IMG/VR virus record: IMGVR_UViG_3300035184_000406
Span: 1 to 29,194 of that record
Length of the DNA: 29,194 bases
Direction: 5' to 3' (one strand)
From: a virus
Shown piece by piece: positions 4,282 through 23,249 of the stretch. The notes beneath the pieces are model-generated. The model did not search any database, was not told the DNA's origin, and was given only the letters and a program-made list of their open reading frames with translations. Made by a program: the position numbers and the translations under genes. Each line of letters starts with the position of its first letter. Position 1 is the first letter of the stretch.

Positions 4282-4896
4282 TTACCCTTCGTTAAATCCA
4301 GTTAAACTTTGTATTCTAACTGTATAATCAATCTGCACTAATCTATTTAAACTCTTTTGCACTGGATGAAATACTACATGAGTTAGTAATCTTCCAGTAC
4401 CGTCTGCACTATAAGCCTTTAATCCAAGCTCGTCAAATACGTATAAACTATCTGTATTTGTAGCTGTATCAAATGCATCTTGCCCTTCAGGCTCGCCGTA
4501 ATCTAGCAAACACGTTACTAATATATCAGTATAATTAGTACCACTTACATGGCGTGTTTCAACTTTATTGCGAGCTGGGTCTAGATTATTTACACTTCGA
4601 TCGTCTACTACTTTAGTAAATGTTTCGTTGTACAAACTAGCATTAGTTCCAGTACTGTTTGGAGTTAAATACGTAATGATGCCTGTAGGATCAACGCTAG
4701 TGCCGCCGTTTCCAAAGCCCATTTGGTAAATCCAACCTGTGCCGGCATTGCCTAAACTTTCTGCAAGGCTAATACTCATATTTTCATAATGAATAGCATT
4801 ACGCTTGTCTACAATAACTTCTCCAGATTCTGGGTCATGTATTTTAATGTGTCCTTGTAGCAGCACACCGCTTTTTTCATTTAATTTGTCTGTCAT
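4282..4896 (-). CDS. Conserved virion protein of unknown function, 204 residues
   Basis: I do not recognise a named domain. The protein begins MTDKLNEKSGVLLQGHIKI and has a Gly/Thr-rich stretch (MGFGNGGTSVDPTG) and an acidic middle (FDELGLKAYSADGTG). It has no signal peptide or membrane segment and looks like a compact beta-rich structural protein. It lies between the giant baseplate-associated gene and two fibres, as the first gene after a putative late promoter, which suggests a connector, fibre-base or baseplate accessory role (T4 has gp8-gp11 in the comparable position). No motif settles which, if any, of these it matches. The only ribosome-site candidate is the weak AGG of GATAGGTAT, about 11 bases before the ATG. 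Confidence 0.8.
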   Translation of the reverse strand: MTDKLNEKSGVLLQGHIKIHDPESGEVIVDKRNAIHYENMSISLAESLGNAGTGWIYQMGFGNGGTSVDPTGIITYLTPNSTGTNASLYNETFTKVVDDRSVNNLDPARNKVETRHVSGTNYTDILVTCLLDYGEPEGQDAFDTATNTDSLYVFDELGLKAYSADGTGRLLTHVVFHPVQKSLNRLVQIDYTVRIQSLTGFNEG

Positions 4897-4919: not shown

Positions 4920-4936
4920 CTGTTAGTATTTATCGC
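4920..4936 (-). promoter_or_regulatory. Putative T4-type late promoter for the 204-residue gene and fibre operon
   Basis: The minus strand reads GCGATAAATACTAACAG, identical over 17 bases to the element at 248-264. The core ATAAATA contains the TAA stop codon (4930-4932) of the giant gene, so the last two codons and stop of that gene overlap the promoter. A start about 10 bases downstream would leave a leader of about 20 bases before the ATG at 4896. Exact recurrence in front of two separate fibre-region genes supports a regulatory role. Confidence 0.72.
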
Positions 4937-7900
4937 GGCAAGCTAACTGTTGACGCACGTAAGAATCTAGCAATGTCAGATTCTGATTCACCTAGTGGTG
5001 TTCCAGGACTTGTCCATTCTATTCCTTGTCGTCTAACAACAGTAACCTTAACGTTTTCGGGCGGTGTTTCTAATAATGTTAGTGTATCGCCGTCTACACT
5101 AAATTCTGCTGGTAATGTAACATCACCTTCTGGGCTATCTTGAGCTACAAGGTTAGTAAAGTCATAACTGCTAATTGTATTTTTGCGCAAACGCTTTCCT
5201 GCTACAAACACTTCAAATTCGTTTACACTAGTTGATGTAAAGTCTAATGTATAAACACTTGATGTACCGTCTGCTGTAAATACCGTCGTTAATGTTTCAT
5301 CTTTGTACGGCATAGTCGAAGTTGCGCCTTGATTATAAACATTTTCACCTTCTAAGTAAATTGATTTAACTCCAGTTCCTAATGTACCTCTACGTAGCTG
5401 ACTTAATACATTGCCATTCCTAACAAAATATTCAATACGCTCGCCGTTAATAAAGATAATACCCGGTGAACGACTTGTTGCTTCCGGAGCAGGTAAAGTC
5501 GATCCATCACTAACTGTAATACTTTGATCATACCAAGTTAGGTCTTTTACTAGTAAGATATTATTAGTATCATCTAAACGCTTGTAGTGAGTTCTGTTAA
5601 GTATATCCTTAAACTGTCTCCAACCGTATTTGTCAACAGTTACTGGATCTGCAAAGTGCAGCAATTCTACTGTGTCATTTGGTTCAATGTCAACGTTAAG
5701 CTTAACATACTTTTTATTATCTGTCACGCTATAATGCACACTTGGAATTAAAAGATTGTTGTTTAGTGTTACCCATACATATTCTGCATCCAGTGCAGGG
5801 CGGTCAAGCTCAATTAATCCACTAGTTAAGTGGTTGTACTTGTACCAATCGTCTGTTCCAACAGTTAAGGATACTCTATCAACAACATCATATTGCTTTC
5901 TATCAAATCCTTGCGAATCATGATTACTAAATTGATAAACTGTTATAGTATCACCCGAAGTATACGCACTATCTAAATATAGCTGTCCAGGAGTAGAAAC
6001 AAATTCGTTTGCATCATTAAAGTAACCATATCTATATTCGCCATCTGATATTACATATACTTTCAATATATCGCCATCTTGTTGTTTTACCGCAGCTTTT
6101 AATCTAATAATACTGCTATTACCGCTACTAGCTGCTCCAGTAAATGTCCATTCAGCTCTATAAGTTAATTCTACATTATTAAGATAAACTTTAATTTGTT
6201 TGTTATCAACACTACCAGGTGGTATTTGGAAATTATCTAGCTGGTATTGTCTAGACGCTGCTGTTGTAACAAATCGCTGAGTAAATCCTGCATTTAATAT
6301 AGCATCGTTAACTTTAACAATACTAAACCATGAACTTGGTTCAAAGTTAAACGGAGTTTGGTTTAACGTAAACGATGTTGTTGTTCCGTCTGATGTAAAT
6401 GTATCAACTGATACTTCACTAAAGTTTTGCTCAGTTCCTTCAAAGAACGCATAGTTAATTACATCGCCAGCTGCTGGAGGTACTGCTAACCTAATAATAA
6501 CATTATTTGGTACTTCGTCAGTGTTGTCACTTTGTACAATTACATTTTCTAACTTTACTCCATTTAAAGTAATAATAGACTGTAAGTTTTCTGACCATCT
6601 TACACTTGTTAAGAATCTTGAAGTACTGCCGTCTGCTGTGACATTATCAATATCTAAAATGTTAGTACCCGAAACACCTAGTGTTGCTAAGTGTATTCTA
6701 CTACTAATAGCAGGCGCTGTTGCAAATGTTATTGTTTTTGCTGCATAATCAATTGTGTAGTTAGTTACAATTGCATAGCCAACTTTTACAAATAAGTCAT
6801 TAGCCTTTAGTGGTACAGTGCCTATTGAATATGTTGTAGTTATACCATCACCAATGTAGTTTCTCGAAACTATTTGACTACTGCCTGATTGTGGTTTTTC
6901 ATATACTTTGATATCAACTGTGTCAAGTAGTTGACCAGGTACAAGTTCTTCTGGACCTTTGCTAGTTGTTTCTGTTACAAATCCGTCGCCATCAATAGTA
7001 ATATCTGCTGCATTTAAGCCAGTAGCAGTCGAATATGCTAGGCCACCGCCTTGTATTAAAGTGTCGTAACTATTTTCATCTGGAAGGAAAGTTCCGTCAC
7101 TAGTTGACTTTCTAATTATAATAGTATCATTTGCAACAGTTGTAATATTTAGGCCGTCGTTATCCAAGAATACAGTTTGTGTTGTTCCGTCACCTGTTAA
7201 ACTTTGACATATTGCATTAGTATTAGTAGGACTGCTAGGATAATTTGGATCATCAATTCTTACATTGTTTAGATAAACGTGATATTGCACTCCGTTTGCT
7301 AATGGCGCAGTAAGATCAAGACTAATAGTAGATCCGTCTAATTCAAAAACTTCATCTTGGTAAGTTGTGTCATAGCTATCCCAAGTATCATCATACCAAG
7401 TGTCCGAATCCCAACCTTGGCCTGCACCAAAATCAAAGCTCTTAACTTGTACGCCGCCGTAATCTAAGCCAGTCATAAGTTGATTCAAGTCTGTAATGTA
7501 CTCACCAGTTTTTGGAATTACATTATTAATTCTATCTTGAGCTTGCATTATATTAATTGACTTATTATACGAAACTACAACCGAGTCATTAACAGCCGGA
7601 GCTGATGTAAACTCAATTTGTCCATAATATCTATCATAACCTTTAGTTACGTCTAATACATTTTTATAAGTGTATTCACTATCTAGTGATTCAATATTGT
7701 TAACTGTAACAGATACGTTAGATTTTAATAAGTCCATTGGCCACATTAGATCAAATTCAAATATGTTGCCGCTTGCTACAAATGTCTCAGTTTCATTAAT
7801 ATTTGTATAAACGTAAGTTCCTGTAGTTCTATCAAACTTAACTGCTGTTGTGATTCCTCTTACTGGATTGTCACCAATCGTTACACTATAAGTTGCACTT

Positions 7901-10900
7901 TTGCCAGTATCATTGATATTTTCTACTGCTGTAATAACAGGAGCACTGTAATAACCGTTACCTGGAGTCAATACATCAACTTTAGTTACTTTTCCGTTTG
8001 CTCCGATATATGTTTTAAGTGTTGCGCCAGTGCCGCCGCCGCCGGACAATGTTAACACAGGAGCAACATTATAGCCGTGTCCTGGATCTACAATACTAAC
8101 ACTTACAACTTTGTAACTGCTGTTATCTAGCCAGTTTTTGTTTGGATAAGTTTCAAGATCAGCATTTACACCTACTAAGGTGTCTTGCTGCACTTTAACA
8201 GTCTGTGGAATAATCTTGCCTTCAGTGGCACTGTACGCCGGTGGAAGATCAAAATCAGTAACAACACTACGTGTGTTATCTAATCCTTCATAAGCACTAA
8301 TATATTCTCTAATCTTTGTACCAAACGGTTTAACTTCTTTAATGTATGATTCGTAACTTGGTAAGTTGTCATTATTAAACGTAATGTCTTCTCTTAATGT
8401 ACCAGCATTGTGCTTTGCTTTAATAAAGCTAGTTTTAAATGCCCAATCAATATAAGTTTGTTCACTAAATGCATAACGTAAACTTGCAAAGAATAAATCA
8501 TTAAATCTAATTTGTAAATCATCAATAAACAAGTTATCTTTAATTACATTTAATATAATTCTTAGTTCAGTAGTAGGTTCGTTATCATATATTTTTGTAT
8601 CAAAACTAATTGTGTCAAACCCAGTAAACGCTGCTATTGTGTCGTACAGCGTTGACTTAATTTGCAACGTACCGTTTTCTCTACCAATAGTTTTATAGTT
8701 TACTGTGTAATCTTCAGTATCTTCGTTTGCAATTTTTTCTAATAGCAGCCAACCACCTGAGCCAATTGTAGATATTTTTACAATATTTCCAATTTCATCG
8801 GCTAAGCTAGTTAACTCATAACTGTTATCAATTAAATAATCAATATTTGAAGTTGCATTATACCCAGTTGCATACCAGTCGATGTAATTCCAATATAAGT
8901 TAACATTCCACCCTTGACTTTGTATTCTGTTCCATGTACGAGAATCACTTAGACGCTCATATATTGCCCACTTACCTTGAATTCCACTATCCGAAGTTAC
9001 TAATACTGTGAATTTTCTAGTAACTAATGTAGTGTTAGCTGAGTAATTTTCACCAGCAGCAACTACTGTTGCTCCTATTACTTTACCAATACTATCAATA
9101 GTAGTTGTTACTACAGCGCCAGTGCCATTGCCGTATACCTTAACAGTTGGTGCCACTCGGTAGCCTCTGCCTGGTGTTGTGATATTAACATTAATAACTT
9201 TTCCGTTTTCAATCACCGGAGTTAATACTGCTTGCGCTGCCTTTGCTACGCCGACAAATTGTAAATCATCTACTGAATCAACTGTTGTATCATATTCGTT
9301 CAACGCTGCAACCGGTGCATTGTCTTGACTTAACAAATCTGTAAAGGTTTTGTCATCAACAATTAAATTATCTTTAAGAATTAAGTTAGTTCTTTCAATA
9401 AACTGTTTTAGTGCTTCAAAGCGGTTAACAAACCAACTTTGTCTTGGCCTATTCAATGCTCCATATTTTTGTTTTGCACTTAGTGACGGATCTGGAACAA
9501 TACGTTTTTGCTCGTCGTATCCTACTAAACTATCAAACCATTTTCTAATAATATCTTTGTTAGGCTGACTTGTTTCTAATCCTTCTGTAACAAGCTGATA
9601 CTGATTATGAATGTTTTGTGTTTGATTTTCTATAGTCCAAAATTGTGTGCTCAATGCCACATCAGTACCTTTAATGTATTTTTCGACATTATACAGTACA
9701 AAACTATTTGAACTTATTAATCCAGCAAATTCATAACCCTTAGCAACAGGATCGCTAATGTAATCAGTAACATCACTAATACTTAAATTTCTAAATTCTG
9801 CATTAGGTATTGTCTTTTTATTACTAACCCAGAAGAAGTAGTTTGTAGTGAATATTTTTGCAACATCGTCATAAACACGCTTGGTACTATAAGCAGTGTC
9901 ACCGTATAAACTAGTTCCGCTATACCCTTTTACAAACCCAGTTGCTGTATCAGCTTTGCTATCCCATACACTTGGTATTACATCTGATTGCACCCATTCG
10001 TAAACATCAATAGAGTTACCTTGGAAAACTTTGGACCAATTTTGTGTACTATAAATTACGTCACCTTGGTAAGGATTATAAAATTTAGCATTAGTTAAAT
10101 TCCACCATACTTCGCCGACACGTTCTGATCCCCAGCTGTTAGTTTCATCAATTATTGCTGTACTTGTTGTAGATATATCATATAATGCAGGATCGTAATA
10201 CGTTTTATATGTTAATTCTTGCTCTGCTACTCCGGCAACTTTGCCCTGAATAGGATCGATATAATCTAAGTGTGTTAGTAGTAAATTTTCCTTAGTATTG
10301 TAAAGGAACATTTTTTTAATTTTATTAATATCAACTGTTGCTTTAACTGCTCTGTGAGTGGTCCACATCGGAGCACCAGCAGTATTACTAAAGTTAACAA
10401 CCTGACCAGTTGTTAGGTTTGAAACTTTAGATGGTAATCCAATATATAGATTATTATCCTTAGCAAGCATATTTCTACCAAAGTAGTTTACATCAGTATC
10501 CGGTATTTGCACAGTTTGTGCTAACAACATTTGCGCTTCGATCTTTTCATACACATAAACTACACCAGCATCGTCATTAGTGCGTTTAAAGTTTGTAAAA
10601 TCATTATCAAATATAGTTGCGCCAGCATCAATTGTTGTGCCAGTTTGTGCATCAGCATTTTTAGCAGATATATGAAGTTTGTTCCCGTCAAACTGTAATT
10701 TCCAACCAAACATTTCTGCACGTTCGTTATTTAAGCTACTAAGGGTTTGTGTTAATTCAAAAACTCCAGCAGCTTGTGCATAGATATAAACAACACCTTG
10801 ATCATCTTTATAGCTGTCGTTAAATGGCGCACTAATAGCAATCATTGTTCCGTCATCGGAGATTGCAATAGAATGCCCAAAGCCTGATGTTTTATCAGGA

Positions 10901-13900
10901 GCAGTAAGTTCCTGAGATCTTTCAAAATGTCCTTGGTTGCTTCTATACACAACTACTTGATTAGCTTTTGCTGCATCGTACAATGCATTAGTAACTAACA
11001 CTTCTCCCGAAGTAGCAACGTCAAATTCTGAACCAAATTCTAATAACAATTCTTGATCAAGAACTGTAATTGCATCAGTGCTATCATTAAATACAGTTAA
11101 CCCAGTATTATTCGGAATAAATCCAACATAATCTACTAAATCGTCAGTTGACGTCCAATCAGCAACGTTAAACGACCCAGGTGCTAGGTTAGTCTTTGCT
11201 ACATACAATATACCTTGTACTTGGTCTACATATACAATATCATCTGTAAAGTAATTTAAGCTTTCGTTAAATGTGCCTTTGAATTTTTTATTCTTAGCAT
11301 AATCCCAATTGTAAGTTAATCCATTTTCTTCGCCGTTTTTAAGAAAGTACAATCTACCAGGACTATTTTCAATTTGTTCATCTTGAGCATGTATAAATGC
11401 TCTGTAAAGATCATTGTTTTTTGTAACCTTAATTTTACTACCTAGTTTAAAGTTTGCTTGTCTTTCAGGAACAGTGTAACTCGAAACTAGATCATATCGA
11501 CCTAATGCTGCACGGGTATATATTGCATATACACCTTCATTACTCAGTGTACTTCCTGTTCCAGTACTATCTGTAGGTATTTGATAAACTTGCGTCCATT
11601 CGTTATTAATAGCAGATGGCTCATTAGCAAGTCGAGGTATACCCGATACGTTACCTTGGGTATATAACCAGTATTCTGCATCTAGTAAATTAGCAGTTGC
11701 AGGAAGTGCAATGTCTGCAGAACTTTGGAATACAAACATTTTGCCAATATTTTCACTTTCTAAACCTAAGTTTACATATTGTATTTGCCCTATTGTTCTA
11801 TCTGCTTGATATGTTGGACTTGGATCGCCGGGTATTAACTTAAATCCTATTTCAGCATTTTGGCCATAATCATTACCATTTGACCAAGTACCAGTAACAC
11901 CCTTAACATATATTGTTACAGTAAGTCCGTCTCTCTGATAGTAAGTAACTACAGCAGTTGCGCCAGTTGATAAGTCTTCAACAGTTTGTCCAATTTTAGG
12001 TTCAAAAGGATTACCAGCTGAATCAAATTTTGTATAATCAAAATGTATATAGCCGTCCCAAATATCATATATTGTGTGTTGTTTGTTAGTAATAACAGTC
12101 GACAAACTAATATTTGCAAGATCTTTAACAGGGCCAGCGCCGTATTGCGGTAGCTGGTTAACATATAAGTTTACAGTGTTGCCTTGTACTAGATTATTAA
12201 TTCTGTATTCACTAGGCGCCCTTACTACAAATAAGTCACTTAAAATTTCACCGTTATTGCCGTATGCTCCAGGAAGTCCTTGAGAACTTAGTACGCCTAT
12301 ATAACTGTTATATGTATTTTGACTGCTAATAGTATCAGTATCATAATCAAGAGCATTATGGAAGAATCTTGCACTGCCGCTGCTATCAGTAACAACATCA
12401 TAAAATACTAATCCGCGTCCTTGATCTTTATTTGTTGTTGCTGTTGTAGGCGTATAAGGAGTAGTGTCGACATACCAATAGCCGCCAAGCTGCGTTGAAG
12501 CATCTACGGAATCAACAGGGCCTTGCTTAACATAGCCTCCAATAAAGTCTCCATCGCTACGGAATAAACTGTCTTCTGTATTGAAATTACCATTAACATC
12601 CTTTAAGTAGATTACTGTTTCTGAACCGTCGACATAAACATAATCTACTACACCCGATCCAGTTTCTGTTTGTAGTATATCTCCTACCACAGTTAAATTA
12701 GTTGCAGCATTAATATATAATATAACATCAACTTTCTTTTGTATAGTAAGATCTGTTTCTAAAAATGCATCAGTAATTTGAGCAAACTGGCCACCAAATG
12801 GTGCTCGAACAGTTAATGGTGCTAAATTTTGATTAGCATATGTAATACTATTCCAAGCTAAGTTTATACTATCATTAACTCCGCTGCCTTCGTATAATGC
12901 TTTAGGAGCTCTAATTAATAAGTGGTTAGTAGCTTGGCCGCTAAATGCATACAAATTAGTAATACTATTAATTGCATAGTTACCAACTAATAGCATTGGA
13001 ATATCAACTGTAGGTACTTCTGCTACACCTAATGCATCAATAATTCCTGCTGTTGAATTAAAGCTATTAAATATAATAGCATCTAATTCTCCGGGTACAT
13101 CAACTAGTGATTTCCATAGTTGTTGATCTTTAAGAACTATTGAGTTTTTACCGTAATTAGAAGCTTGCTGATAGTTGCCTTTAAACTTAGTTTTAACATT
13201 AGAAGCATTAGGCGAACCTACTATTAAAAATTGTGCATCAGGACTTAATGCAACTGTTGCACCAAATCTTTCGCCAGCGTCACCTACTATTAGTGGATCA
13301 ATTATTTGAGTCTGTAAATAATTAATACTAGAAGTAGCACGACTGTAAATGTAAACCTTGCCATCACCTTGATCAGGAGCGCCAACTGCAAGAACTGTGT
13401 TCCTATCGTCAACTGATAATGCAGTACCAAAAGATTCATCAGCTGATAACGACGACTTTGATATTCTTAATGTTTCATCAAATACGTTATCATTTTTAAG
13501 CACAGCCCACTGATTAGGTTCTTTAAGACTATCAATCCACACATAATCATTAAGCGCAAGGCTCTTTTGAACAATACTGTTTGCGGCTTCTATATTTGTA
13601 GCTCTTACATTACTAAATCGTGTAATAGATCCAATACATTTTTCTACTGCTGTTACAGCAGTATTAGTAGCAAGAGTAATTACATTTTTAGCAACACTAA
13701 TTACTGTGAAGAATCCTTTAAGATCAACAACCAATCCTGGGCCTGGCGTTGGAGTGTCTGCTATAAATTCACTTAGCCCATGTAGCCCTATTATATCATT
13801 AGCTACAATGTCTGTTACGTTTAAATTAAGCGTAATTGTAAATTGTGTTGCACCTGCTGAAACTTCTTGAACTGTATAATCAGTATCAACATGCTTGTAT

Positions 13901-16900
13901 ACATTCCAGTCACGGTTGTCATTGCCGACCCAGATATAGGCACCACTGTCTATATCGTCAAAGTTAAAGTCTGCAATATTACTATAATTTGTTGCTACAC
14001 CTCTAACATCTGCTTGATTAACATAACCTGCATCTCGTACATACGGATCCGAAACGTATTTTTCAGGAAACGGTTTATGATTATAATTAGGAGTTTTTTG
14101 ATAAACTTCATAAGGAAGAATTCTATAAACTAAATCAGTTTCAAGTCCTGTAGTAGATGTTACAAGATCAATTGGTTGCGGAGTTAATCTAAACTTACTC
14201 TCATCAAGTAATAATTCGTATTCAGTAAATCCGTCACTTGCTCCGTACTGCCCATCTTTGATCGCCCACTCTTCGTAGAACTCTAAACTGTCTTTGTTAG
14301 AACTACTTAATACATCAAATAATTTTGTTAATGCATTTTTAGTACCCTTATCTTGGATCATACCTTGATAAAATTTATACTGACTTACATCATCATTAAT
14401 AATGTTTTCAAGATATTGACGTTTCTGATATCCAATTAAATGCTGTGCTACTTTTTGCTGCTCAGTGTCAAAGTTATCTGAGTCTAAGTCATAGAAGTCT
14501 GCAAACTGATTAGTTTTATATTCAAAGTTTGCATATAGCCCTGATTCAGGTTTTTCGTCTAATCTATTCCAGTCGCTTGCATTAAATGTTTCAACACCTG
14601 ATAATTTATTTGCTGCACTGTAGTAAAATTCTTTGTACTTTACTAATGAACCAATTGCATAATCAGTCCAAGATTCCCAGATTGTTACTTTAGCATCATC
14701 GTATATGAATCCGGGAACATTCAAACTGCCGTCCCAGTCTTGTGTCAAGTATCCTAATACTTTAATTCTTTCTTGTCTGTATCCAGGTTGAGTATCATAT
14801 ATAATATCACCAAATACTGTTTTGTTATCAATAATTAATACATGTTCTTTTTGTACCAAAGGTAACTTAACAGCAAAAATGCCATCTGCTGTGTTTCTTG
14901 GACGTAGAACAAATTCGTTTGGCTGTCTGCCTAATAATGCAAATTCTTCAACTAGTTTATTACCATCCGACTTTAGTAAAGTATATCCGTAAAACCCATC
15001 AAAGATGTTATCTACCATAGAATATTCTGTTTTAAATTTAAGTTGTGCAGCAGCAGGACTTAGTGTAATAACACTTCCTTCGCCCCAGTTTTGCGTTGTC
15101 CAGAATAAGAATTCATTCACACTATGACGCCAGTTTAATACAACTTTTTCATTTCCATCGAAATAATCAAATACAAATCCTTGATCTTCTAAGTAGGCAC
15201 CATATCCTAATAAAAAGTCAACAACGTCTTGTATAGTAATAAACAATTTACCGTAATCTGCTTCAAGAACAATATTCTTATTAAATTGTTTTCTAACAAA
15301 TGCATCTCTGCCGCCAATTAATGGCAATGCCGGTAATTTAGAAAATTTAGTTTCATCAAAACTTGATGTACTTGTATGATTAGTGTTTACTCTATAGTAA
15401 GAACCTTGATATTCAACATTAGACCCTTGTACATATAATTTATTACCAGTCCAAACAAGGAACGACTCGCTTATGCCACCAATGTTAATACTAGGATCAC
15501 GTTGAGTTGCAATTGCAGCATAATATTTAAAGTTTGCTATTTCTTGGTCATACCCTTTTACAACATATCCATCAGTTCTGCGTTCAATTATTACACCACT
15601 ATAACTAATTGTTTTAATCGGTGTACTAGAATTTAAAAATACGCTATAGTTTTCATCTGGTACAAATACGTTACCTTTGTTAAGAGGGGTTCTTGAATCT
15701 AATATTAACTTAAATTTATCTACATCAGTAAAGCCGGCTAATTTGTAGCCTAATTGGTTATCAATTGTTTTAATATTAGATTTATAAGTATTATATGATT
15801 TCAATATATCTGCTGTCATATAACTAGCAATATAGTTTACTAGTCCACTAGTATATACTTGTACTGAATCTTCAGCAGTATTTGGAAATATTATATCTTC
15901 TAATTTAATTCTTGTATTAGTTGACTTATAAACTAACTCTCCAGAAACATTTCGAACTTGGTTGATTCTATCAAATCCTGATGCAAATAACATCTGAGGT
16001 TTATTAATTGCAAATGCAGTAATAACACTAAACGGAAATTCTGAACTACTACGCCACGCTGCTTCTACAGGAGCGCCGTCACCAAACACAAAGCTTTGGT
16101 CAATGTTTTGCGGATTAAAGAAATTAATGTATCCTGAATCCAAAGGAGATAATAAATTACCTTCGCTATCAGTTGGAATATGATTTGTTAATGTAGGACG
16201 TTTGTAATTGTTTAATACTTTATATTTTACGCCAGGCTGTCTTAAAATGCCTGCTTCAAGATCTTGCCATAGTAATGAATTTTCTTTAGTATAAGGAGCA
16301 GGACCGTATTGCGCTTCCCACCATGTAGGCATAACACTAAGACCTAGCATTTCCCAAGGATGTGTATGAGGACGATCAGTATCAAACGCTTGTTTATATA
16401 TTTCTCTCCAATAACCAGGCACTGCTGTATCTAATGCATTAGTACTAGAAGTATAGTTAAATGTAAATCTATTAGTTCTTTCAAAGAAATTATGTAATGT
16501 ATAATCTTGATCAATTAGTTTTGACCATTGAATAAAGTCAGGTAACATTACTTTATCTATTTGCGCTTTAGAAACTTTAGTATTTCTATAGTCGGCGCCA
16601 ACAAGATTGTGAATGTCTAAAAAGTTTACATCATACTGAACTTTAATATTGTTATATATTCTGCGCTCAAGTTCTAATAACAAGTCATCTCTATAATCAC
16701 CAAATGCAGCAACTTTACTTCCGTCGTGGCCTTGAATAACACTTCTAGGAATAATAAAGGTATTGTCAACATATATTACTGGTTCAAAGGAAGGATACAA
16801 TCCTAACTTAGTTGGCGTTGGCGGAATATAACTACCGTTAGTAGTTTCGTATTCGTAAATTTCTATAATATCGTCTTGTTGTTTAGTAACTGTAATTAAT

Positions 16901-19776
16901 GCATAACCTTCACTATTGAAAGTATAGTCTGTTCCATGTATTAATTGTACGCCGTTTTTATAAACTTGCACAGCTTGTCGAGATGCAGTTGTTAAAGTAA
17001 AAGGCTTCGATAAAGGAAAAAATAGTTCATCTGGGTCTTCAATTAGCGAAGTAATTATACGAGTTGCGCCAGCCGGAACCATATCACTAAAGAAAAACGG
17101 TTGTGTTTTAGTTTTGTTTTTATTAATTGATTCTAGTATAACATCAACATGTGTTTTAATCGAGCCTTGATATTCTAAATCTTCTGCTGCTTGTAAAAAT
17201 AAACGCTTAAATGTTCCGTACTGCTTACGTGCAAATTTTAAACTCTTAACAACGTTAGCATCGTTATCTAACATGTGATACAACGGTAAGTTCATAGGTG
17301 AACTGTGCTGTAAGAATCTACGACCTAGTCCTGTTACATTACCGATATCTCTGAGATTGCTCGTTCCCGGGTATACGCCAGTAAAGGTGTCACTCTGCTC
17401 TACAATAGTAGCGACATGATCATTAACTTCGCCTAACGTGAATTGGCTAAGGTTTTCATTTTTAGGATTTCTTTCTAAAGAAGCTGGTATTTCGTAATAT
17501 CCATTATCATTCTTTGTCGCAGCTGATCTTGTTTTAATTAGAATAACATCGTTAATAGTAAGATCGTTAATAAAGTTAATTATAGCATTATTATTAACAT
17601 CGCTGTCAAGTGTGTAATCAACATCTTTAAATTGTAATTTATTGTTTAAATATACTCGTGTCCATAGATCTGTTAACAATGCACTATTGTCATATACATC
17701 TATCATAAATCCGGAAGTAGTGTTATCAAATACATATTGATTAATTACTAATTGCTCACTAAGTGTTTCTACTTTTTTCCAACCAGATAATGTATCAAAC
17801 GTATCTAATGTTGAATACTTTCTTAGAAATCCAGTATCTGTATTTTTAGCAAACTCGTTATTGTCAAGAGTATATGTCATCTTATCTTGTAACAAGTTAA
17901 AATCAAATACAATGTCACCAGTGTTTGCAATATTTCTATAAGAAATAGGAATACCTATCTCTGTATCAACTGCTCCAGTTCCCGTTTTGTAACTAAAAAG
18001 TTTATTTCCAGTAAAGGTCGATGACTGGTATGTAGCAGTATCAGCATACGAATTCCCATTAACATCAAATACATCAAATAATGGTGGTTGGTTTGGTAAT
18101 AGCTTATCTTGTGATAACTGCCAAGTTGTTCCTGTATAATGTAATAGCTTTCCTCTAAATGTAGTACCGCTTGCTACTAATACTACTTCGTTTGTTTGCG
18201 GCAATGTATCTAATTCTGGAACTAAGGTTATTTGTCTGTTAGTTGCAGATCCTGTAGAAAAATTAATAAAATTAACTTTATAAATTCTACCTGATACTAA
18301 AATGTCAGTATCTGCTGTAAACAAAATACGCATGCCGTCGGCAAGATCAACTCCGTCTACGTTATATCCTGGCGAACCTTCAATTGTCGAAAATGCATCT
18401 TTTGTAAAATTATCTACTACATCAACATCAGTTTTAGCAGTAGTGCCAAAGTTAAATAATTTAATATTTGCTTCAAATTCGATTATTGGTCTTTTTGCTC
18501 GCTGTAGTTGATCTACTGCAACAGGCTGATTGTTAGCTGCTGCCGATGCTTCAATTACACTTTTATGGAACCATCTGTTGTATCTACTCCATAAGTTGCC
18601 GTCAAGACTTGCGCGGTTAATAACAAAATAATCTTTATTTTCAGGGTAACCAATTGCTTTACTATACGGCAGGCGATCAAAGCCTTGTGCATCAAATGCT
18701 ACATCAATATCGGATGTAAACGAAGTAGGAACATTTAGTGTTTTCTCGGAAATTAGTCTAATACTATCTCCTACACCTTCTATGTAAAATGAACCAGTTG
18801 CATAAGTTGCCGGAATAACTTCTCCAGTAAATTCTACTTTCATTCCATTTGACAACTTAACGCCGTTACTGTCTTGATAAGATTTTTTGCCAATAATTTC
18901 TTTGTTAATATCAATAAAAGTAGCTTCACTAATATCTTTAATAATAATAGTACCACTAGCTTCGATGTCATTAGCTGCTACATAATACAATACGTCAGGT
19001 GCATCTGCTCCTAATTGGATTGTACTAATACCTTTTTCTAGACCTTGTATGCTAACACCTTCAAGAACAAGTATACTCGAACTATCTAATTCAAAACCTT
19101 CTTCTAAAGTTTTCTTTGTTTTAATTGTAAAAGGTAAGTTTGGAGTATCAATGTCGAAGTTATAAGTAATACCTCTATAAAGAGTAATTGTAGGATTCTG
19201 TGTTTTGCCATCTGGAGAAAATACGTAAGTTTGATTATCAACATTATCTCCAATACGAACAGTGTATGTACTTTCAACATCAACTGTATTGCCGGATATT
19301 CCAATTATTTGTGGACCAGTAGGCAACCAATAGTATTCACGGAAGTTACTAAACTTATCCCAGTCGATGCTAGGGTTCCAAGCGTAATATTCTTGTTCGT
19401 TAACTGTGCTGTGATTGTTATTTGACTTATTAAAGTTGTTTAATTGATTTGTAAAATCGTTATAATCTTTATAAAAATTAACATTACCTAATTGGTCTTT
19501 AATTACTGCTGACGGTTCTAGTTGATAATTAAATCTGTCAGTACTAACGTCACCAATATAATTGTCAGTAGGATTAAATGCCTTTGCTGTTTGTCTGCCA
19601 ATATAACCATTTAATTTTTCTACAACACCTGGTTGTATTAATTGATCTAGAGTACTATTTAAAAATTTCTTGTTAGCAGTAGTTCTAAAAAACTTAGGAA
19701 GAAACGTTTCACTTTTACGGTTTGATTTTCCGTCTGCCGGCAGTGCTTGCTCGTTTTGATCATTATCGTAAGACAT
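4930..19776 (-). CDS. Giant multidomain virion protein, 4948 residues, in the gp7 position of the baseplate cluster
   Basis: A single uninterrupted frame encodes about 540 kDa, against about 1030 residues for T4 gp7, which follows gp6 in T4. The N-terminus (FLPKFFRTTANKKFLNSTL, about 24-45) and a block near 1135 (HPWEMLGLSVMPTWWEAQYG) look to me like large structural proteins of marine T4-like phages, from memory. Visible modules include Trp/Tyr-rich carbohydrate-binding-like stretches near 1450, 1700 and 2840 (for example YAIGSLVKYKEFYYSA). FG-GAP-like beta-propeller repeats lie near 2115, 2165, 2965, 3020 and 3100 (SFGTALSVDDRNTVLAVGAP, GFGHSIAISDDGTMIAISAP). Glycine-rich GY..AP repeats lie near 3535 and 3895, and DGT-type beta repeats near 4195, 4305, 4380, 4460 and 4830. 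The start shares one base with the gp6 stop (TAATG), preceded by GGAGG. A wedge-periphery and fibre-like role is inferred. It could instead be a fusion of several gp7-gp10 functions. Confidence 0.85.
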   Translation of the reverse strand: MSYDNDQNEQALPADGKSNRKSETFLPKFFRTTANKKFLNSTLDQLIQPGVVEKLNGYIGRQTAKAFNPTDNYIGDVSTDRFNYQLEPSAVIKDQLGNVNFYKDYNDFTNQLNNFNKSNNNHSTVNEQEYYAWNPSIDWDKFSNFREYYWLPTGPQIIGISGNTVDVESTYTVRIGDNVDNQTYVFSPDGKTQNPTITLYRGITYNFDIDTPNLPFTIKTKKTLEEGFELDSSSILVLEGVSIQGLEKGISTIQLGADAPDVLYYVAANDIEASGTIIIKDISEATFIDINKEIIGKKSYQDSNGVKLSNGMKVEFTGEVIPATYATGSFYIEGVGDSIRLISEKTLNVPTSFTSDIDVAFDAQGFDRLPYSKAIGYPENKDYFVINRASLDGNLWSRYNRWFHKSVIEASAAANNQPVAVDQLQRAKRPIIEFEANIKLFNFGTTAKTDVDVVDNFTKDAFSTIEGSPGYNVDGVDLADGMRILFTADTDILVSGRIYKVNFINFSTGSATNRQITLVPELDTLPQTNEVVLVASGTTFRGKLLHYTGTTWQLSQDKLLPNQPPLFDVFDVNGNSYADTATYQSSTFTGNKLFSYKTGTGAVDTEIGIPISYRNIANTGDIVFDFNLLQDKMTYTLDNNEFAKNTDTGFLRKYSTLDTFDTLSGWKKVETLSEQLVINQYVFDNTTSGFMIDVYDNSALLTDLWTRVYLNNKLQFKDVDYTLDSDVNNNAIINFINDLTINDVILIKTRSAATKNDNGYYEIPASLERNPKNENLSQFTLGEVNDHVATIVEQSDTFTGVYPGTSNLRDIGNVTGLGRRFLQHSSPMNLPLYHMLDNDANVVKSLKFARKQYGTFKRLFLQAAEDLEYQGSIKTHVDVILESINKNKTKTQPFFFSDMVPAGATRIITSLIEDPDELFFPLSKPFTLTTASRQAVQVYKNGVQLIHGTDYTFNSEGYALITVTKQQDDIIEIYEYETTNGSYIPPTPTKLGLYPSFEPVIYVDNTFIIPRSVIQGHDGSKVAAFGDYRDDLLLELERRIYNNIKVQYDVNFLDIHNLVGADYRNTKVSKAQIDKVMLPDFIQWSKLIDQDYTLHNFFERTNRFTFNYTSSTNALDTAVPGYWREIYKQAFDTDRPHTHPWEMLGLSVMPTWWEAQYGPAPYTKENSLLWQDLEAGILRQPGVKYKVLNNYKRPTLTNHIPTDSEGNLLSPLDSGYINFFNPQNIDQSFVFGDGAPVEAAWRSSSEFPFSVITAFAINKPQMLFASGFDRINQVRNVSGELVYKSTNTRIKLEDIIFPNTAEDSVQVYTSGLVNYIASYMTADILKSYNTYKSNIKTIDNQLGYKLAGFTDVDKFKLILDSRTPLNKGNVFVPDENYSVFLNSSTPIKTISYSGVIIERRTDGYVVKGYDQEIANFKYYAAIATQRDPSINIGGISESFLVWTGNKLYVQGSNVEYQGSYYRVNTNHTSTSSFDETKFSKLPALPLIGGRDAFVRKQFNKNIVLEADYGKLFITIQDVVDFLLGYGAYLEDQGFVFDYFDGNEKVVLNWRHSVNEFLFWTTQNWGEGSVITLSPAAAQLKFKTEYSMVDNIFDGFYGYTLLKSDGNKLVEEFALLGRQPNEFVLRPRNTADGIFAVKLPLVQKEHVLIIDNKTVFGDIIYDTQPGYRQERIKVLGYLTQDWDGSLNVPGFIYDDAKVTIWESWTDYAIGSLVKYKEFYYSAANKLSGVETFNASDWNRLDEKPESGLYANFEYKTNQFADFYDLDSDNFDTEQQKVAQHLIGYQKRQYLENIINDDVSQYKFYQGMIQDKGTKNALTKLFDVLSSSNKDSLEFYEEWAIKDGQYGASDGFTEYELLLDESKFRLTPQPIDLVTSTTGLETDLVYRILPYEVYQKTPNYNHKPFPEKYVSDPYVRDAGYVNQADVRGVATNYSNIADFNFDDIDSGAYIWVGNDNRDWNVYKHVDTDYTVQEVSAGATQFTITLNLNVTDIVANDIIGLHGLSEFIADTPTPGPGLVVDLKGFFTVISVAKNVITLATNTAVTAVEKCIGSITRFSNVRATNIEAANSIVQKSLALNDYVWIDSLKEPNQWAVLKNDNVFDETLRISKSSLSADESFGTALSVDDRNTVLAVGAPDQGDGKVYIYSRATSSINYLQTQIIDPLIVGDAGERFGATVALSPDAQFLIVGSPNASNVKTKFKGNYQQASNYGKNSIVLKDQQLWKSLVDVPGELDAIIFNSFNSTAGIIDALGVAEVPTVDIPMLLVGNYAINSITNLYAFSGQATNHLLIRAPKALYEGSGVNDSINLAWNSITYANQNLAPLTVRAPFGGQFAQITDAFLETDLTIQKKVDVILYINAATNLTVVGDILQTETGSGVVDYVYVDGSETVIYLKDVNGNFNTEDSLFRSDGDFIGGYVKQGPVDSVDASTQLGGYWYVDTTPYTPTTATTNKDQGRGLVFYDVVTDSSGSARFFHNALDYDTDTISSQNTYNSYIGVLSSQGLPGAYGNNGEILSDLFVVRAPSEYRINNLVQGNTVNLYVNQLPQYGAGPVKDLANISLSTVITNKQHTIYDIWDGYIHFDYTKFDSAGNPFEPKIGQTVEDLSTGATAVVTYYQRDGLTVTIYVKGVTGTWSNGNDYGQNAEIGFKLIPGDPSPTYQADRTIGQIQYVNLGLESENIGKMFVFQSSADIALPATANLLDAEYWLYTQGNVSGIPRLANEPSAINNEWTQVYQIPTDSTGTGSTLSNEGVYAIYTRAALGRYDLVSSYTVPERQANFKLGSKIKVTKNNDLYRAFIHAQDEQIENSPGRLYFLKNGEENGLTYNWDYAKNKKFKGTFNESLNYFTDDIVYVDQVQGILYVAKTNLAPGSFNVADWTSTDDLVDYVGFIPNNTGLTVFNDSTDAITVLDQELLLEFGSEFDVATSGEVLVTNALYDAAKANQVVVYRSNQGHFERSQELTAPDKTSGFGHSIAISDDGTMIAISAPFNDSYKDDQGVVYIYAQAAGVFELTQTLSSLNNERAEMFGWKLQFDGNKLHISAKNADAQTGTTIDAGATIFDNDFTNFKRTNDDAGVVYVYEKIEAQMLLAQTVQIPDTDVNYFGRNMLAKDNNLYIGLPSKVSNLTTGQVVNFSNTAGAPMWTTHRAVKATVDINKIKKMFLYNTKENLLLTHLDYIDPIQGKVAGVAEQELTYKTYYDPALYDISTTSTAIIDETNSWGSERVGEVWWNLTNAKFYNPYQGDVIYSTQNWSKVFQGNSIDVYEWVQSDVIPSVWDSKADTATGFVKGYSGTSLYGDTAYSTKRVYDDVAKIFTTNYFFWVSNKKTIPNAEFRNLSISDVTDYISDPVAKGYEFAGLISSNSFVLYNVEKYIKGTDVALSTQFWTIENQTQNIHNQYQLVTEGLETSQPNKDIIRKWFDSLVGYDEQKRIVPDPSLSAKQKYGALNRPRQSWFVNRFEALKQFIERTNLILKDNLIVDDKTFTDLLSQDNAPVAALNEYDTTVDSVDDLQFVGVAKAAQAVLTPVIENGKVINVNITTPGRGYRVAPTVKVYGNGTGAVVTTTIDSIGKVIGATVVAAGENYSANTTLVTRKFTVLVTSDSGIQGKWAIYERLSDSRTWNRIQSQGWNVNLYWNYIDWYATGYNATSNIDYLIDNSYELTSLADEIGNIVKISTIGSGGWLLLEKIANEDTEDYTVNYKTIGRENGTLQIKSTLYDTIAAFTGFDTISFDTKIYDNEPTTELRIILNVIKDNLFIDDLQIRFNDLFFASLRYAFSEQTYIDWAFKTSFIKAKHNAGTLREDITFNNDNLPSYESYIKEVKPFGTKIREYISAYEGLDNTRSVVTDFDLPPAYSATEGKIIPQTVKVQQDTLVGVNADLETYPNKNWLDNSSYKVVSVSIVDPGHGYNVAPVLTLSGGGGTGATLKTYIGANGKVTKVDVLTPGNGYYSAPVITAVENINDTGKSATYSVTIGDNPVRGITTAVKFDRTTGTYVYTNINETETFVASGNIFEFDLMWPMDLLKSNVSVTVNNIESLDSEYTYKNVLDVTKGYDRYYGQIEFTSAPAVNDSVVVSYNKSINIMQAQDRINNVIPKTGEYITDLNQLMTGLDYGGVQVKSFDFGAGQGWDSDTWYDDTWDSYDTTYQDEVFELDGSTISLDLTAPLANGVQYHVYLNNVRIDDPNYPSSPTNTNAICQSLTGDGTTQTVFLDNDGLNITTVANDTIIIRKSTSDGTFLPDENSYDTLIQGGGLAYSTATGLNAADITIDGDGFVTETTSKGPEELVPGQLLDTVDIKVYEKPQSGSSQIVSRNYIGDGITTTYSIGTVPLKANDLFVKVGYAIVTNYTIDYAAKTITFATAPAISSRIHLATLGVSGTNILDIDNVTADGSTSRFLTSVRWSENLQSIITLNGVKLENVIVQSDNTDEVPNNVIIRLAVPPAAGDVINYAFFEGTEQNFSEVSVDTFTSDGTTTSFTLNQTPFNFEPSSWFSIVKVNDAILNAGFTQRFVTTAASRQYQLDNFQIPPGSVDNKQIKVYLNNVELTYRAEWTFTGAASSGNSSIIRLKAAVKQQDGDILKVYVISDGEYRYGYFNDANEFVSTPGQLYLDSAYTSGDTITVYQFSNHDSQGFDRKQYDVVDRVSLTVGTDDWYKYNHLTSGLIELDRPALDAEYVWVTLNNNLLIPSVHYSVTDNKKYVKLNVDIEPNDTVELLHFADPVTVDKYGWRQFKDILNRTHYKRLDDTNNILLVKDLTWYDQSITVSDGSTLPAPEATSRSPGIIFINGERIEYFVRNGNVLSQLRRGTLGTGVKSIYLEGENVYNQGATSTMPYKDETLTTVFTADGTSSVYTLDFTSTSVNEFEVFVAGKRLRKNTISSYDFTNLVAQDSPEGDVTLPAEFSVDGDTLTLLETPPENVKVTVVRRQGIEWTSPGTPLGESESDIARFLRASTVSLPR

Positions 19777-22700
19777 TAGTAAGTAGTTCCTCCACTTTGG
19801 ATACCAGTATTAGCTGTAGTTGCTGAAGTAACAATTGATCCTTCAGCACTTAATCTTGTTGCTGTAACACTGTCAATTAATTCAACATCTGTTACAGTTG
19901 CAGAACTGATAAAGATTTCATCAGCTTCTGACTTTATTTCAAATAAACTTCCAAACGTAGATGTTACTTGACTAGGTACAACTACAAACGTCACTAAGCT
20001 TGGAGTTAGTTGTTGCATTACATATGTACTCAGTTCTGTAAAGTAAAAAGATTCACCAAACTCCCAGTTTTCGAGTGCAAAGAATTCGTTAATTGCTGCA
20101 ATTACTCTAGTTTTAATTTCGTTATCGTTAATAACAACTTCAGGATTTTTTACAATCTTAAATGTTGCTTGTAAATCTGCAGGAGCTTTTTCTCCAAACA
20201 GTATCTTATACTTAACAGGATGATATATAATTTCGTCACTAATTGACTTTATATTATTCAGTTTTTGACCATAACTTAAAAACAACTGATCGCTGCTAGG
20301 AGCAAGCGGTTTAACTGTTGTTGTGCCATCTAAATATAGTCTAAAGTCGTTATCATAAGACTTTGTTAGCATATAGGTATCAATAATATTACTTACACTA
20401 GGATCAATGCGTGTACTTTCGTCAGCTGCGTGAACATAATGAAACTTTAAGTTATTGCGTCCTATTTTGGCTCTATAAAGTTGCGATGTATTAAGATTGC
20501 CTGTTAACTTTTCTAATACTTGAAATACTTGTTCTTTAATAAAGTAAAATATTTGACCATCGGCATATATTGATGTACTTCCTAGAAGATCTTTACTAGC
20601 TAATACTTGTATACTGCCTGTGCCGTCTGTAAAATTATACAAGCCAGCCGGTGTAGGTATAACTGTAGGCAAGTAACTAAATTCTTCAACGCCGTCAATT
20701 GTGGTGGATTTTAAATCAAAAACGTACTTTGTTAAAGAATTAACATCTTCATTTACAATCTCATCAAATAGTTGAGGATTATCAACAACTCCGTCGTCGT
20801 CTTCATCAAAGAAACTAACTTGCAATTTACTACTATCTACGTATCCTTCGGCATCTCTGTATTCTTCAACAATTTCCCAATCAAAATCAGTTGTGAAAGG
20901 TGTAACACTATCTGGCTTTTGGTTAATATTTAATACAGATATTTTATCTTTAATAATCTTGCCAGTTCTATTATTATAAATCTTATCTGAACTGTCAAAA
21001 TAGAATCTAATTTCGTCTGCACTTTCAAATACGTATCTACTGCCTCTATAGGTAACTGTGTAAGTCGACCCGTTTGTTTCAAACAATATTAACCAACTAG
21101 CATCTAATTGTTGATTAGTTGCATCGCCAGTTTTGCCAATACTAAACGGACTATTAATATTTAGATTATTAGTAGTTACTAAACGCCATTGGCCTAATGT
21201 TACATCAAATCTTAAACCAAAGCTATTATACGCAAAAGCTTGATCAATTAATTGTGTTTGTACAGAATCAGTTAACTCAGTTGCAAGTCTCGGAATAACT
21301 TGTGTTAGCTTCGACCCTGATGGAATGTTATCATTTAACATAACTGGTCCAGTACCGTCTGCATTAGTTACAGTTCCGTTACCTACAACACTTATTACTT
21401 TAGTCCATTTATAGGTAATAGCGTTTGCATGATCTGCTGGGCCATCCATCAAAGCATTATTATTTTTACTCATAAAATGCTTGCCAGCCGGCGCTTCAAA
21501 CTTTACTAATGTTCCGGATTTTAATAACTTGAGAGTACTAGCTGTAAATGTGCTTAGTTCAGATCGTATTCCGGATGTGTTAGTAAAGTAACCTGTATTT
21601 TGATTAGTTAACACAGTTTCACTATTCCAAACTACTCCTAAGTCTCCTACTAAAACTTTAGGAAAACTATTATAATAATAATTCTTAACAGTTGTGTTCT
21701 TTAAGATAGGTTCTATTACATTTGCAATAGCACCCTCAATATCTGTTTTTGTAGTAAAACTAAATCTAACTTTAGGCGTTAAAAACTCTTTAGTTAATAT
21801 ACCGTCAATACCGAATAAATTAGTTTTAGAATATTTTCCAGTTGCATCAACTAAGTCTAAATAACGACTAATGCCACTTGCTGTTCTATTAACACTTTTT
21901 ACTTTAATAATCTCTTGACTAATTGATAACGGAGCAACTTGATAATCTTCAGCTGTAATCATTCTATTTTGTGTATAATATGTTGCCGGAGCATTGCGTT
22001 TAATACTTGCACTTGATTCGCTTGTACTTGCATTGTCAACTGTATACTTCAGTGAAAATACCATTGTCAACTGTTCTGATTTACCTGTTCTACTAACATA
22101 CGGTATATTAATACTAACGCCGCGCATGTCACTAGGCTCAATTACAATTCTTTGATTCTTACTTGCTCTGTAATAAGTTCTAAATGATCCCTGAGGTAAG
22201 TTACCAAAGGTGCCATCTGAAAATATTAAACTAATTCTATCATTTGCTCGTGTTAATACACTATAAATATTTCTAATGCTTTTACTCAAACTATTGTAAA
22301 TTACATTATTACCTTCAACTGCGTCAACTTTTGACCATAATTCTTCTTCAAGTCCATAGTCATCAACTTTGTAAAGCCATACATCTGAATTGTTAACATT
22401 CGTTGCATCAATTGCAACTACTTGGTTAGTACTCGGTGACGTAACACTAAACGTTCCTTGATCAAGTGTGCCTTGTCTAAAATGGCAAAAATAACCAGTG
22501 TTAGAACTAGCCGGTCCTTTGCCGTCATTTCTATATAAAAATGCAAAGTTATTACCCGGAAAAGGTGCTTCTTCTTTAATTTCACTATTATCTATATCAG
22601 TTGAAACTATTTCAAATCTGCTTGTACTGCCGCTAATAGTCTTAGTAAAACCAAAGACCGGAACGTCGGAATTAGTACTGTTTAAACGATATTGTTCTGT

Positions 22701-23249
22701 TGGAATACTACCAACAGTTTCTTTCTTAGCAGGGCGGCCAATATTATTGTTTACTGGGAGAGCTCCGTTTAATAATTTTGTAAACTGTTCTTGCCAATCA
22801 GGATTACTTGGATCATTCCAAATAATTGTTTGATTAGATAAATTTAAATTATTTGAATCTCTAATAGATTCAGTTGTTTTTAAACTTTCAATTTTAAGTA
22901 AACCGTTAGATGCTTGATTACGCTTTGGGTTATAAGACAAGGTACGAGCAAGGCGGAGAACTGATTCTCTACGTTCTGCAAGTTCTAAAAAGTTTTCTCT
23001 AGCGTTCAAATCAGTACGGAATGCAATGTTTTGTCCTAGGAAAGCAATTAGGTCTATAAGTGCAAGGTACTCTGAACTTTCAATGTAGTCATTGAAATCT
23101 TCTGGATAATTTTGTCGAATATAATTGATCATTGTTCGACGTAAATTGTCGAAATCGTATGATTTAAAATCAGCGTTTCTATAACTCTGATAGATACGCT
23201 TCCAGTCTTCTGCTACTAGCAGTCTATTTTGTCTGTCTGTACTTGACAT
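19776..23249 (-). CDS. 6: Baseplate wedge protein gp6 (Baseplate J family), enlarged
   Basis: gp6 forms the continuous inner ring of the myovirus baseplate and joins neighbouring wedges. The N-terminal 120 residues fit the family: YDFDNLRRTMINYIRQNYPE, SSEYLALIDLIAFLGQNIAF, then LAERRESVLRLARTLSYNPK. The C-terminal 130 residues also fit: IAAINEFFALENWEFGESFY, FTELSTYVMQQLTPSLVTFV and FGSLFEIKSEADEIFISSAT. At 1157 residues it is well above T4 gp6 (about 660). The excess sits in the middle, roughly residues 560-900, as beta-rich sequence without recognised domains. AAGAGGAAAG lies upstream of the ATG, and a putative late promoter lies in the 58-base gap to gp25. The stop overlaps the giant gene as TAATG. 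In P2 terms it occupies the J position, right after gp25/W. Confidence 0.92.
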   Translation of the reverse strand: MSSTDRQNRLLVAEDWKRIYQSYRNADFKSYDFDNLRRTMINYIRQNYPEDFNDYIESSEYLALIDLIAFLGQNIAFRTDLNARENFLELAERRESVLRLARTLSYNPKRNQASNGLLKIESLKTTESIRDSNNLNLSNQTIIWNDPSNPDWQEQFTKLLNGALPVNNNIGRPAKKETVGSIPTEQYRLNSTNSDVPVFGFTKTISGSTSRFEIVSTDIDNSEIKEEAPFPGNNFAFLYRNDGKGPASSNTGYFCHFRQGTLDQGTFSVTSPSTNQVVAIDATNVNNSDVWLYKVDDYGLEEELWSKVDAVEGNNVIYNSLSKSIRNIYSVLTRANDRISLIFSDGTFGNLPQGSFRTYYRASKNQRIVIEPSDMRGVSINIPYVSRTGKSEQLTMVFSLKYTVDNASTSESSASIKRNAPATYYTQNRMITAEDYQVAPLSISQEIIKVKSVNRTASGISRYLDLVDATGKYSKTNLFGIDGILTKEFLTPKVRFSFTTKTDIEGAIANVIEPILKNTTVKNYYYNSFPKVLVGDLGVVWNSETVLTNQNTGYFTNTSGIRSELSTFTASTLKLLKSGTLVKFEAPAGKHFMSKNNNALMDGPADHANAITYKWTKVISVVGNGTVTNADGTGPVMLNDNIPSGSKLTQVIPRLATELTDSVQTQLIDQAFAYNSFGLRFDVTLGQWRLVTTNNLNINSPFSIGKTGDATNQQLDASWLILFETNGSTYTVTYRGSRYVFESADEIRFYFDSSDKIYNNRTGKIIKDKISVLNINQKPDSVTPFTTDFDWEIVEEYRDAEGYVDSSKLQVSFFDEDDDGVVDNPQLFDEIVNEDVNSLTKYVFDLKSTTIDGVEEFSYLPTVIPTPAGLYNFTDGTGSIQVLASKDLLGSTSIYADGQIFYFIKEQVFQVLEKLTGNLNTSQLYRAKIGRNNLKFHYVHAADESTRIDPSVSNIIDTYMLTKSYDNDFRLYLDGTTTVKPLAPSSDQLFLSYGQKLNNIKSISDEIIYHPVKYKILFGEKAPADLQATFKIVKNPEVVINDNEIKTRVIAAINEFFALENWEFGESFYFTELSTYVMQQLTPSLVTFVVVPSQVTSTFGSLFEIKSEADEIFISSATVTDVELIDSVTATRLSAEGSIVTSATTANTGIQSGGTTY

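Follow-up and report, generated by a model that had tools for sequence, protein, structure and literature searches.

A giant virion protein in the gp7 position of a phage baseplate cluster: conserved core blocks and variable binding-type modules

The 29,194-base virus record analysed here (the window, probably a fragment) encodes a 4,948-residue protein, hereafter the giant, directly after a gp6-like baseplate wedge gene. The best reading of this protein is a wedge scaffold in the gp7 position that has grown by the insertion of binding modules, and a probability of roughly 0.68 is assigned to the giant being a wedge subunit in the place of T4 gp7 in the contractile-tail baseplate of a jumbo-type phage. 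The assignment draws on synteny, the same locus in seven jumbo phages, mass spectrometry (MS) of virions, cyanophage giants carrying a gp7 module, a match to the short KGT motif of gp7, and the predicted binding modules. Proteins of giant size occupy the gp7 slot widely among marine, freshwater and jumbo phages, under the sole database name 'virion structural protein'; new here are the map of the giant's modules, the link to gp7 suggested by KGT and the naturally split genes described below.

The baseplate locus

The genes of the window are given below in their order along the minus strand.

28285-29154, minus strand: phrog_12050 protein
27983-28285, minus strand: gp53-like wedge gene
25421-27982, minus strand: phrog_11190 protein
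23772-25421, minus strand: hub/spike gene with an injector OB domain
23308-23757, minus strand: gp25-like wedge gene (PF04965, E=1.4e-8)
19776-23249, minus strand: gp6-like wedge gene directly upstream of the giant (phrog_10646, phrog_219)
4930-19776, minus strand: giant ORF, gp7-position virion protein of 4,948 aa (PHROG 10938; phrog_10938, E=0)
4282-4896, minus strand: downstream 204-aa protein (phrog_11259), adjoining the giant in most relatives checked
2172-4277, minus strand: fibre with a tail-collar domain
268-2172, minus strand: another fibre-like protein

With the order gp53 - hub/spike - gp25 - gp6 - giant, the window is a baseplate wedge/hub cluster, and the giant occupies the slot held by T4 gp7 after gp6, as the original prediction had proposed. 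The start codon of the giant and the end of the gp6-like gene overlap by 1 base, and gp6 lies immediately upstream of the giant in 211 of the 216 testable relatives, such a 1-base overlap being the most frequent arrangement. The 204-aa gene is found downstream of the giant in 68 of 76 relatives, a few of these at a distance. Two side observations concern the hub/spike gene (23772-25421): beside the injector OB domain Pfam detects no lysozyme domain in its product, unlike T4 gp5, and near its 3' end (23807-23936) a 66-base (22-codon) unit is tandemly duplicated with a 98% match.

Integrity of the giant reading frame

The giant ORF begins with ATG and extends over 14,847 bases (4,948 codons plus the stop), corresponding to 51% of the window and 4.8 times the length of T4 gp7 (1,032 aa), in line with the expectation of a gene filling half of the window and about five times the size of gp7. 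Its coordinates, length and freedom from internal stops had been given exactly; the strand, left unstated at the time, is minus, the plus strand over 4930-19776 carrying stops throughout and the remaining two minus-strand frames being open for at most 73 codons. The chance of an open frame this long is ~10^-174 under random expectation at this base composition. Comparison of the giant with four relatives, whose 500-residue segments are 50-85% identical to it, showed the most change at third codon positions in every segment, which indicates that the whole frame is under coding constraint. Close relatives diverge most at residues 2001-2500 (57-59% vs 73-85% for much of the rest), and this divergence, located inside the inserted section, fits what is expected of a surface-contact region. 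Inside the ORF, no in-frame start codon accompanied by a Shine-Dalgarno-like sequence could be found; such a sequence is also missing at the start of the giant itself, which is what translational coupling to gp6 would predict.

Relatives and detection in virions

Eighty close relatives were found in IMG/VR, 43 of them with both ends, and in 42 of these 43 the protein measures 4,944-5,250 aa. With distant relatives included, the conserved core is covered by a single ORF, counted as one that reaches from the equivalents of residues <200 to >3,700, in 167 of the 236 related virus contigs. Three related contigs (L196, L198 and L200) have open frames longer than that of the window, of at least 5,467-5,525 aa, running off the fetched stretch. 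In five others (L036, L244, L272, L326 and L336) the giant ORF is broken at scattered places; the gap lengths match the missing residues, and these split ORFs were therefore set aside as probable frameshifts.

Orthologues occupy the same locus after gp6 in seven jumbo phages, namely PA5oct (3,857 aa), Phosso (4,555), Atu_ph07 (4,449), SCTP-2 (3,807), RaK2 (3,326), 121Q (3,323) and Vibrio phage 2.275.O (3,771). Both jumbo phages and cyanophages commonly carry a giant ORF after gp6, those of cyanophages measuring 3,400-6,800 aa, so that the size of the giant has precedents and the rarity implied by the original prediction does not hold. The phrog_10938 profile matches the giant with E=0 in five stretches (profile positions 19-2470 of 3324), and this match, together with the location directly after a gp6-like gene, places the giant in PHROG 10938, 'virion structural protein'. 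It adds a new member to a family that is known but functionally unstudied, literature searches having returned no functional study of PHROG 10938. The isolate members at this locus (RaK2 gp465, 121Q gp582, PA5oct gp355, Atu_ph07 gp180, Phosso and SCTP-2 gp140), some of them MS-detected, share homologous blocks with the giant at ~20-45% identity per 100 residues, whereas the window protein is longer; its additional CBM5/12 insert (1690-1740), its propeller module and its C-terminal repeats are missing from the isolates or replaced there. Neither 'head and packaging' (10938) nor 'head closure Hc2' (460, 3465) was accepted as a function, since these PHROG labels are carried by a baseplate-locus protein and by the GxGY repeat, respectively.

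The description of the giant as a virion protein is borne out by MS detection of its orthologues in PA5oct and phAPEC6, which speaks to virion presence only. PA5oct gp355 is annotated with ESI-MS/MS evidence, and the phAPEC6 virion proteome includes gp245 (predicted 381.88 kDa, 17 unique peptides), which adjoins gp244 'baseplate wedge' (PMC7247149). In Pectobacterium phage CBB, 21 peptides with a coverage of 7.7% identified CBB_236, the neighbour of the gp6 homologue CBB_237 (PMC5259590); its position and low coverage suggest that CBB_236 is the giant of that phage.

Core blocks, inserts and structural models

The anatomy of the giant was mapped by aligning the seven isolates onto the window protein, and repeat and module copies were located by iterated searches of the window protein. 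AlphaFold2 models of residues 1-720 (mean pLDDT 81.6) and 1000-1960 (mean pLDDT 83.7) were both compared with the PDB using Foldseek, the latter also with predicted viral proteins.

19327-19776, minus strand: conserved N-terminal block, residues 1-150, LPxxFRT..N.KFL.ST.DQL..PG...GYIGR (conservation, alignment, AlphaFold model)
18922-19218, minus strand: cupredoxin-like domain, ~residues 187-285 (Foldseek; absent in the RaK2/121Q type)
17977-18639, minus strand: conserved core block, residues 380-600 (pLDDT >90 over most)
14167-16779, minus strand: conserved core block, residues 1000-1870 (within the 961-residue model, mean pLDDT 84)
15340-15471, minus strand: predicted CBM5/12 (chitin-binding type 3)-like module, residues 1436-1479 (1442-1479 in the iterated search; also Pfam, PDB profile, Foldseek)
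14566-14685, minus strand: predicted CBM5/12-like module, residues 1698-1737 (insertion, absent here from the aligned isolate phages)
14296-14388, minus strand: putative KGT helix-turn-helix, residues 1797-1827 (best gp7-module profile match in the protein)
13189-13446, minus strand: predicted FG-GAP-type blades 1-2, residues 2111-2196 (2111-2144, 2166-2196; iterated search)
13090-13173, minus strand: predicted partial CBM5/12-like module, residues 2202-2229 (iterated search)
11152-11274, minus strand: predicted CBM5/12-like module, residues 2835-2875 (iterated search)
10549-11040, minus strand: predicted FG-GAP-type blades 3-5, residues 2913-3076 (2913-2944, 2955-2999, 3010-3076; PF14312, E=7e-11)
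9487-10479, minus strand: conserved core block II, residues 3100-3430
9043-9198, minus strand: GxGY repeat, residues 3527-3578 (common to HTVC008M gp055)
8167-9009, minus strand: conserved core block III, residues 3590-3870 (a gene of its own in L195 and L202)
7849-8109, minus strand: GxGY repeats, residues 3890-3976 (3890-3942, 3930-3976; phrog_460)
6304-7395, minus strand: fibre-type beta repeats, residues 4128-4491 (iterated search)
5317-5526, minus strand: C-terminal conserved module, residues 4751-4820, ERIEY..GN.LSQ.RRGTLGTG

Blocks common to all seven isolates lie at residues 1-150, 340-600, 1000-1200, 1480-1870, 3200-3500 and 3600-3800, and the conserved core of the giant consists of blocks 1-600, 1000-1870, 3100-3430 and 3590-3870. 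The section 1930-3150 varies in size, from 160 residues in RaK2/121Q to ~1,220 in the window protein and ~1,480 in Atu_ph07/Phosso. The several kinds of repeat anticipated for the giant were recovered as FG-GAP-type, CBM5/12-type, GxGY-type and fibre-type beta repeats, a further beta repeat lying near residue 4830. Separable propeller and binding modules had also been foreseen, and are found by Pfam for FG-GAP and by Pfam, PDB profile and Foldseek for CBM5/12, binding itself being predicted.

A CBM5/12-type module in the giant is supported by both sequence profile and modelled fold. Pfam detects it in all 11 members scanned (best E 5e-14), the window protein itself falling below the curated cutoff; the profile matches PDB chitinase and chitin-deacetylase modules with E 3.5e-5, and Foldseek of the model gave local matches with prob 1.0 (1ed7, TMt 0.73). 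The CBM5/12 modules stand at differing places across relatives, and in the N-terminal region of L259 and L274 one appears to interrupt the cupredoxin-like domain, which together suggest that these modules are traded as inserts. The FG-GAP beta-propeller repeats, recognised by the PF14312 match (E=7e-11) and present in five copies in total, are themselves interrupted, with ~700 residues between blades 2 and 3.

For residues 1000-1960, the chitin-binding fold was the only confident one among the listed Foldseek matches in the PDB; among predicted viral proteins the model matched uncultured phage proteins, two of them named 'YHYH domain', at up to 45% identity, and also the Atu_ph07 structural protein. 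In the model of residues 1-720, Foldseek identified a cupredoxin-like domain (rusticyanin, laccases) with prob 1.0 and 225 matches at E<=0.001; its range of ~187-285 was estimated from the strand pattern of the model and the sequence, as the Foldseek output carries no query residues. No conserved His/Cys/Met set that could serve as copper ligands is present in residues 181-290. Searches of the PDB with the giant chain (phmmer) and with an N-terminal profile returned nothing.

Natural splits of the chain

In a few relatives the chain is divided between genes. L227 has two, the first of which stops at a position equivalent to residue 2001 while the second begins at 3096, so that the break lies within the variable section. 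The first gene of L195 and of L202 reaches to ~3430, and the block from 3590 onward is encoded by a gene of its own; in L201, too, a gene stops at 3433. A tree of residues 1000-1960 puts the split loci at two distinct positions among relatives with a single ORF, L227 being beside the unsplit SCTP-2, which indicates at least two splitting (or fusion) events, each of them between conserved blocks. As the splits fall between these blocks, the blocks seem able to work as separate chains. Unrelated ORFs lie between the split halves, of 937 and 250 aa in L195 (13510-17083) and of 1,416 aa in L202 (10691-14941).

Relationship to gp7 and other wedge proteins

T4-type gp7 profiles built from eight diverse sequences gave no match along the giant, including in 400-residue windows, nor did PHROG 964 or the Pfam Gp7 domains (Gp7_helical, Gp7_5th, Gp7_6th). 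The helical module of gp7 is recognizable more widely: PHROGs 2885, 17744 and 26741 within it are common to T4 gp7 and to pelagiphage HTVC008M gp055, which occupies the gp7 slot, and the module is also found in cyanophage giants, including S-RIM8 'gp7' (6,395 aa), ACG-2014d (6,817), ACG-2014a (6,064), MED4-213 (4,458), S-RSM4 (3,515) and S-RIM32 (3,411), with lengths taken from CDS coordinates and an adjacent gp6 seen for S-RIM8, MED4-213 and S-RIM32. These proteins contain a KG[TI] motif, exemplified by FYSTKGIEASYKFLFKVLY in T4 and FYSTKGTTFSIEYLFKLLY in S-RIM8.

A gp7-module profile that included T4 gp7 was slid along the PHROG 10938 alignment with reversed decoys as control, and its best place in the 4,948-residue chain was 1806-1827 (MIQDKGTKNALTKLFDVL), scoring 28.1 against 17.3 for the next place and <=16.3 for the decoys. 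Of 75 relatives, 74 retain K1810 and G1811. The hhalign probability of this match is only 4-14%, over ~20-35 aligned residues, about the same as the 12-14% obtained for HTVC008M gp055 vs T4 gp7. At the sequence level, the KGT motif is suggestive of gp7 homology, not of membership. The expectation of gp7-like content is therefore upheld weakly, by a short KGT helix motif that ranks first when the whole chain is scanned, and not by any overall profile or fold match to gp7; nor does this element lie at one end, as had been proposed, being situated about a third of the way into the chain. Among the matches listed, Foldseek of models 1-720 and 1000-1960 gave no confident one to gp7 or another wedge protein, the KGT region having a pLDDT of ~45-65 over much of 1760-1850.

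The suggested gp10-like content was not recovered, the best hhalign score of a single-sequence T4 gp10 query being 22.7 vs a decoy maximum of 21.4. More generally, hhalign with 400-residue windows for T4 gp8, gp9, gp10, gp11, gp12 and VrlC gave nothing clearly beyond reversed decoys, and the giant shows no profile likeness to HTVC008M VrlC. A match of T4 gp6 to residues 1007-1033 (28.5 vs a decoy maximum of 22.6), involving one sequence and 27 columns, was set aside.

The cyanophage giants (S-RIM8, ACG-2014d, MED4-213; PHROGs 2885, 17744, 26741) resemble the window giant in following gp25-gp6, in size, and in their GxGY repeats and KGT motif, but only these repeats, the short motif and a cupredoxin-type stretch (MED4-213) are common in sequence, and the PHROG 10938 conserved blocks are not detectable in them. 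T4 gp7 (PHROG 964) likewise follows gp6, precedes peripheral and fibre genes and has the KG[TI] helix motif to which the KGT element of the giant may correspond, whereas it is 1032 aa long, has no significant overall similarity to the giant and has Pfam domains that are not found there.

Proposed role and alternative readings

From the observed locus, family membership, modules and occurrence of orthologues in virions, we infer the following arrangement of the wedge. By analogy with T4 and with A-1(L), where the wedge stoichiometry is (gp31)2-gp32 (PMC10966104), each wedge would contain one copy of the giant (six per virion) and two copies of the adjacent gp6-like protein. Around residue 1810, the KGT helix together with the conserved sequence that flanks it would belong to the wedge core, which blocks 3100-3870 may extend outward, and the size-variable inserts (cupredoxin-like, CBM5/12-type, FG-GAP propeller and C-terminal beta repeats) would be placed at the periphery or rim. 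There they may bind envelope glycans and/or dock the separate fibre proteins encoded just downstream, such that surface contact would be passed to the sheath through one covalent chain. A bolder version of this model is tentative, with the odds against it: T4's outer baseplate (gp7 plus gp8-gp11) might here be a single covalent chain, with glycan-binding, cupredoxin-like and propeller modules plugged into a fixed core, and in some lineages might have been cut back into genes at module boundaries.

It is unlikely, though it deserves the most weight among the alternatives, that the giant only neighbours gp6, as a peripheral baseplate or fibre-anchoring virion protein, with the true gp7 counterpart absent or elsewhere. 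The lack of significant gp7 similarity in profile or fold fits such a protein, as do the adhesion-type character of most recognisable domains and the T4-homologue list in excerpts of the CBB report, which has gp6, gp25 and gp53 and no gp7 (PMC5259590); against this, gp6 adjacency is strict across very divergent phages, the KGT element is the top match of the gp7-module profile, and the same slot is held in cyanophages by gp7-module giants.

Production of the giant as a precursor, its chain being cut or several products arising from internal starts, is a poorer prospect still. Relatives L227, L195 and L202 carry the same blocks as separate genes split at module boundaries, as this reading would have it, but internal in-frame starts with a Shine-Dalgarno-like sequence were not found, the single-ORF state is kept in 167 relatives, and the published MS tables give one product, without intact size (PMC7247149, PMC5259590). 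An assembly or sequencing error joining separate genes, which the original prediction had named as one refuting circumstance, could be entertained for a metagenomic contig fragment with five related contigs that look frame-shifted at scattered places; it is so improbable that it is treated as ruled out, the same long ORF recurring in dozens of independent assemblies and several sequenced isolates and the coding signal being uniform along the whole chain. The core/insert map and the natural splits divide this unknown protein of 5,000 residues into named pieces for expression, glycan-binding tests and baseplate-map fitting, which would help to explain how tail tips change host binding as the contraction machinery stays fixed.

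The gp7 slot in pelagi- and cyanomyophages

T4 gp7 has been reported to be missing from pelagi- and cyanomyophages, VrlC being named as its apparent substitute (PMC7029224). The PHROG comparisons above suggest instead that the protein directly after gp6 in these phages carries the gp7 module. HTVC008M gp055 (1016 aa, PF23786 Baseplate_wedge) shares with the giant the gp7 slot between gp6 and gp8, the KGT motif and the GxGY repeats, but is five times smaller and does not have the conserved blocks in common. It is labelled 'head closure Hc2' (L105, 8436-11486), yet it is encoded between gp6 and gp8 and contains the gp7 helical module and the Baseplate_wedge Pfam domain; it seems to have been misannotated through the GxGY repeat, by which the label would have been passed on (PHROGs 460, 3465).
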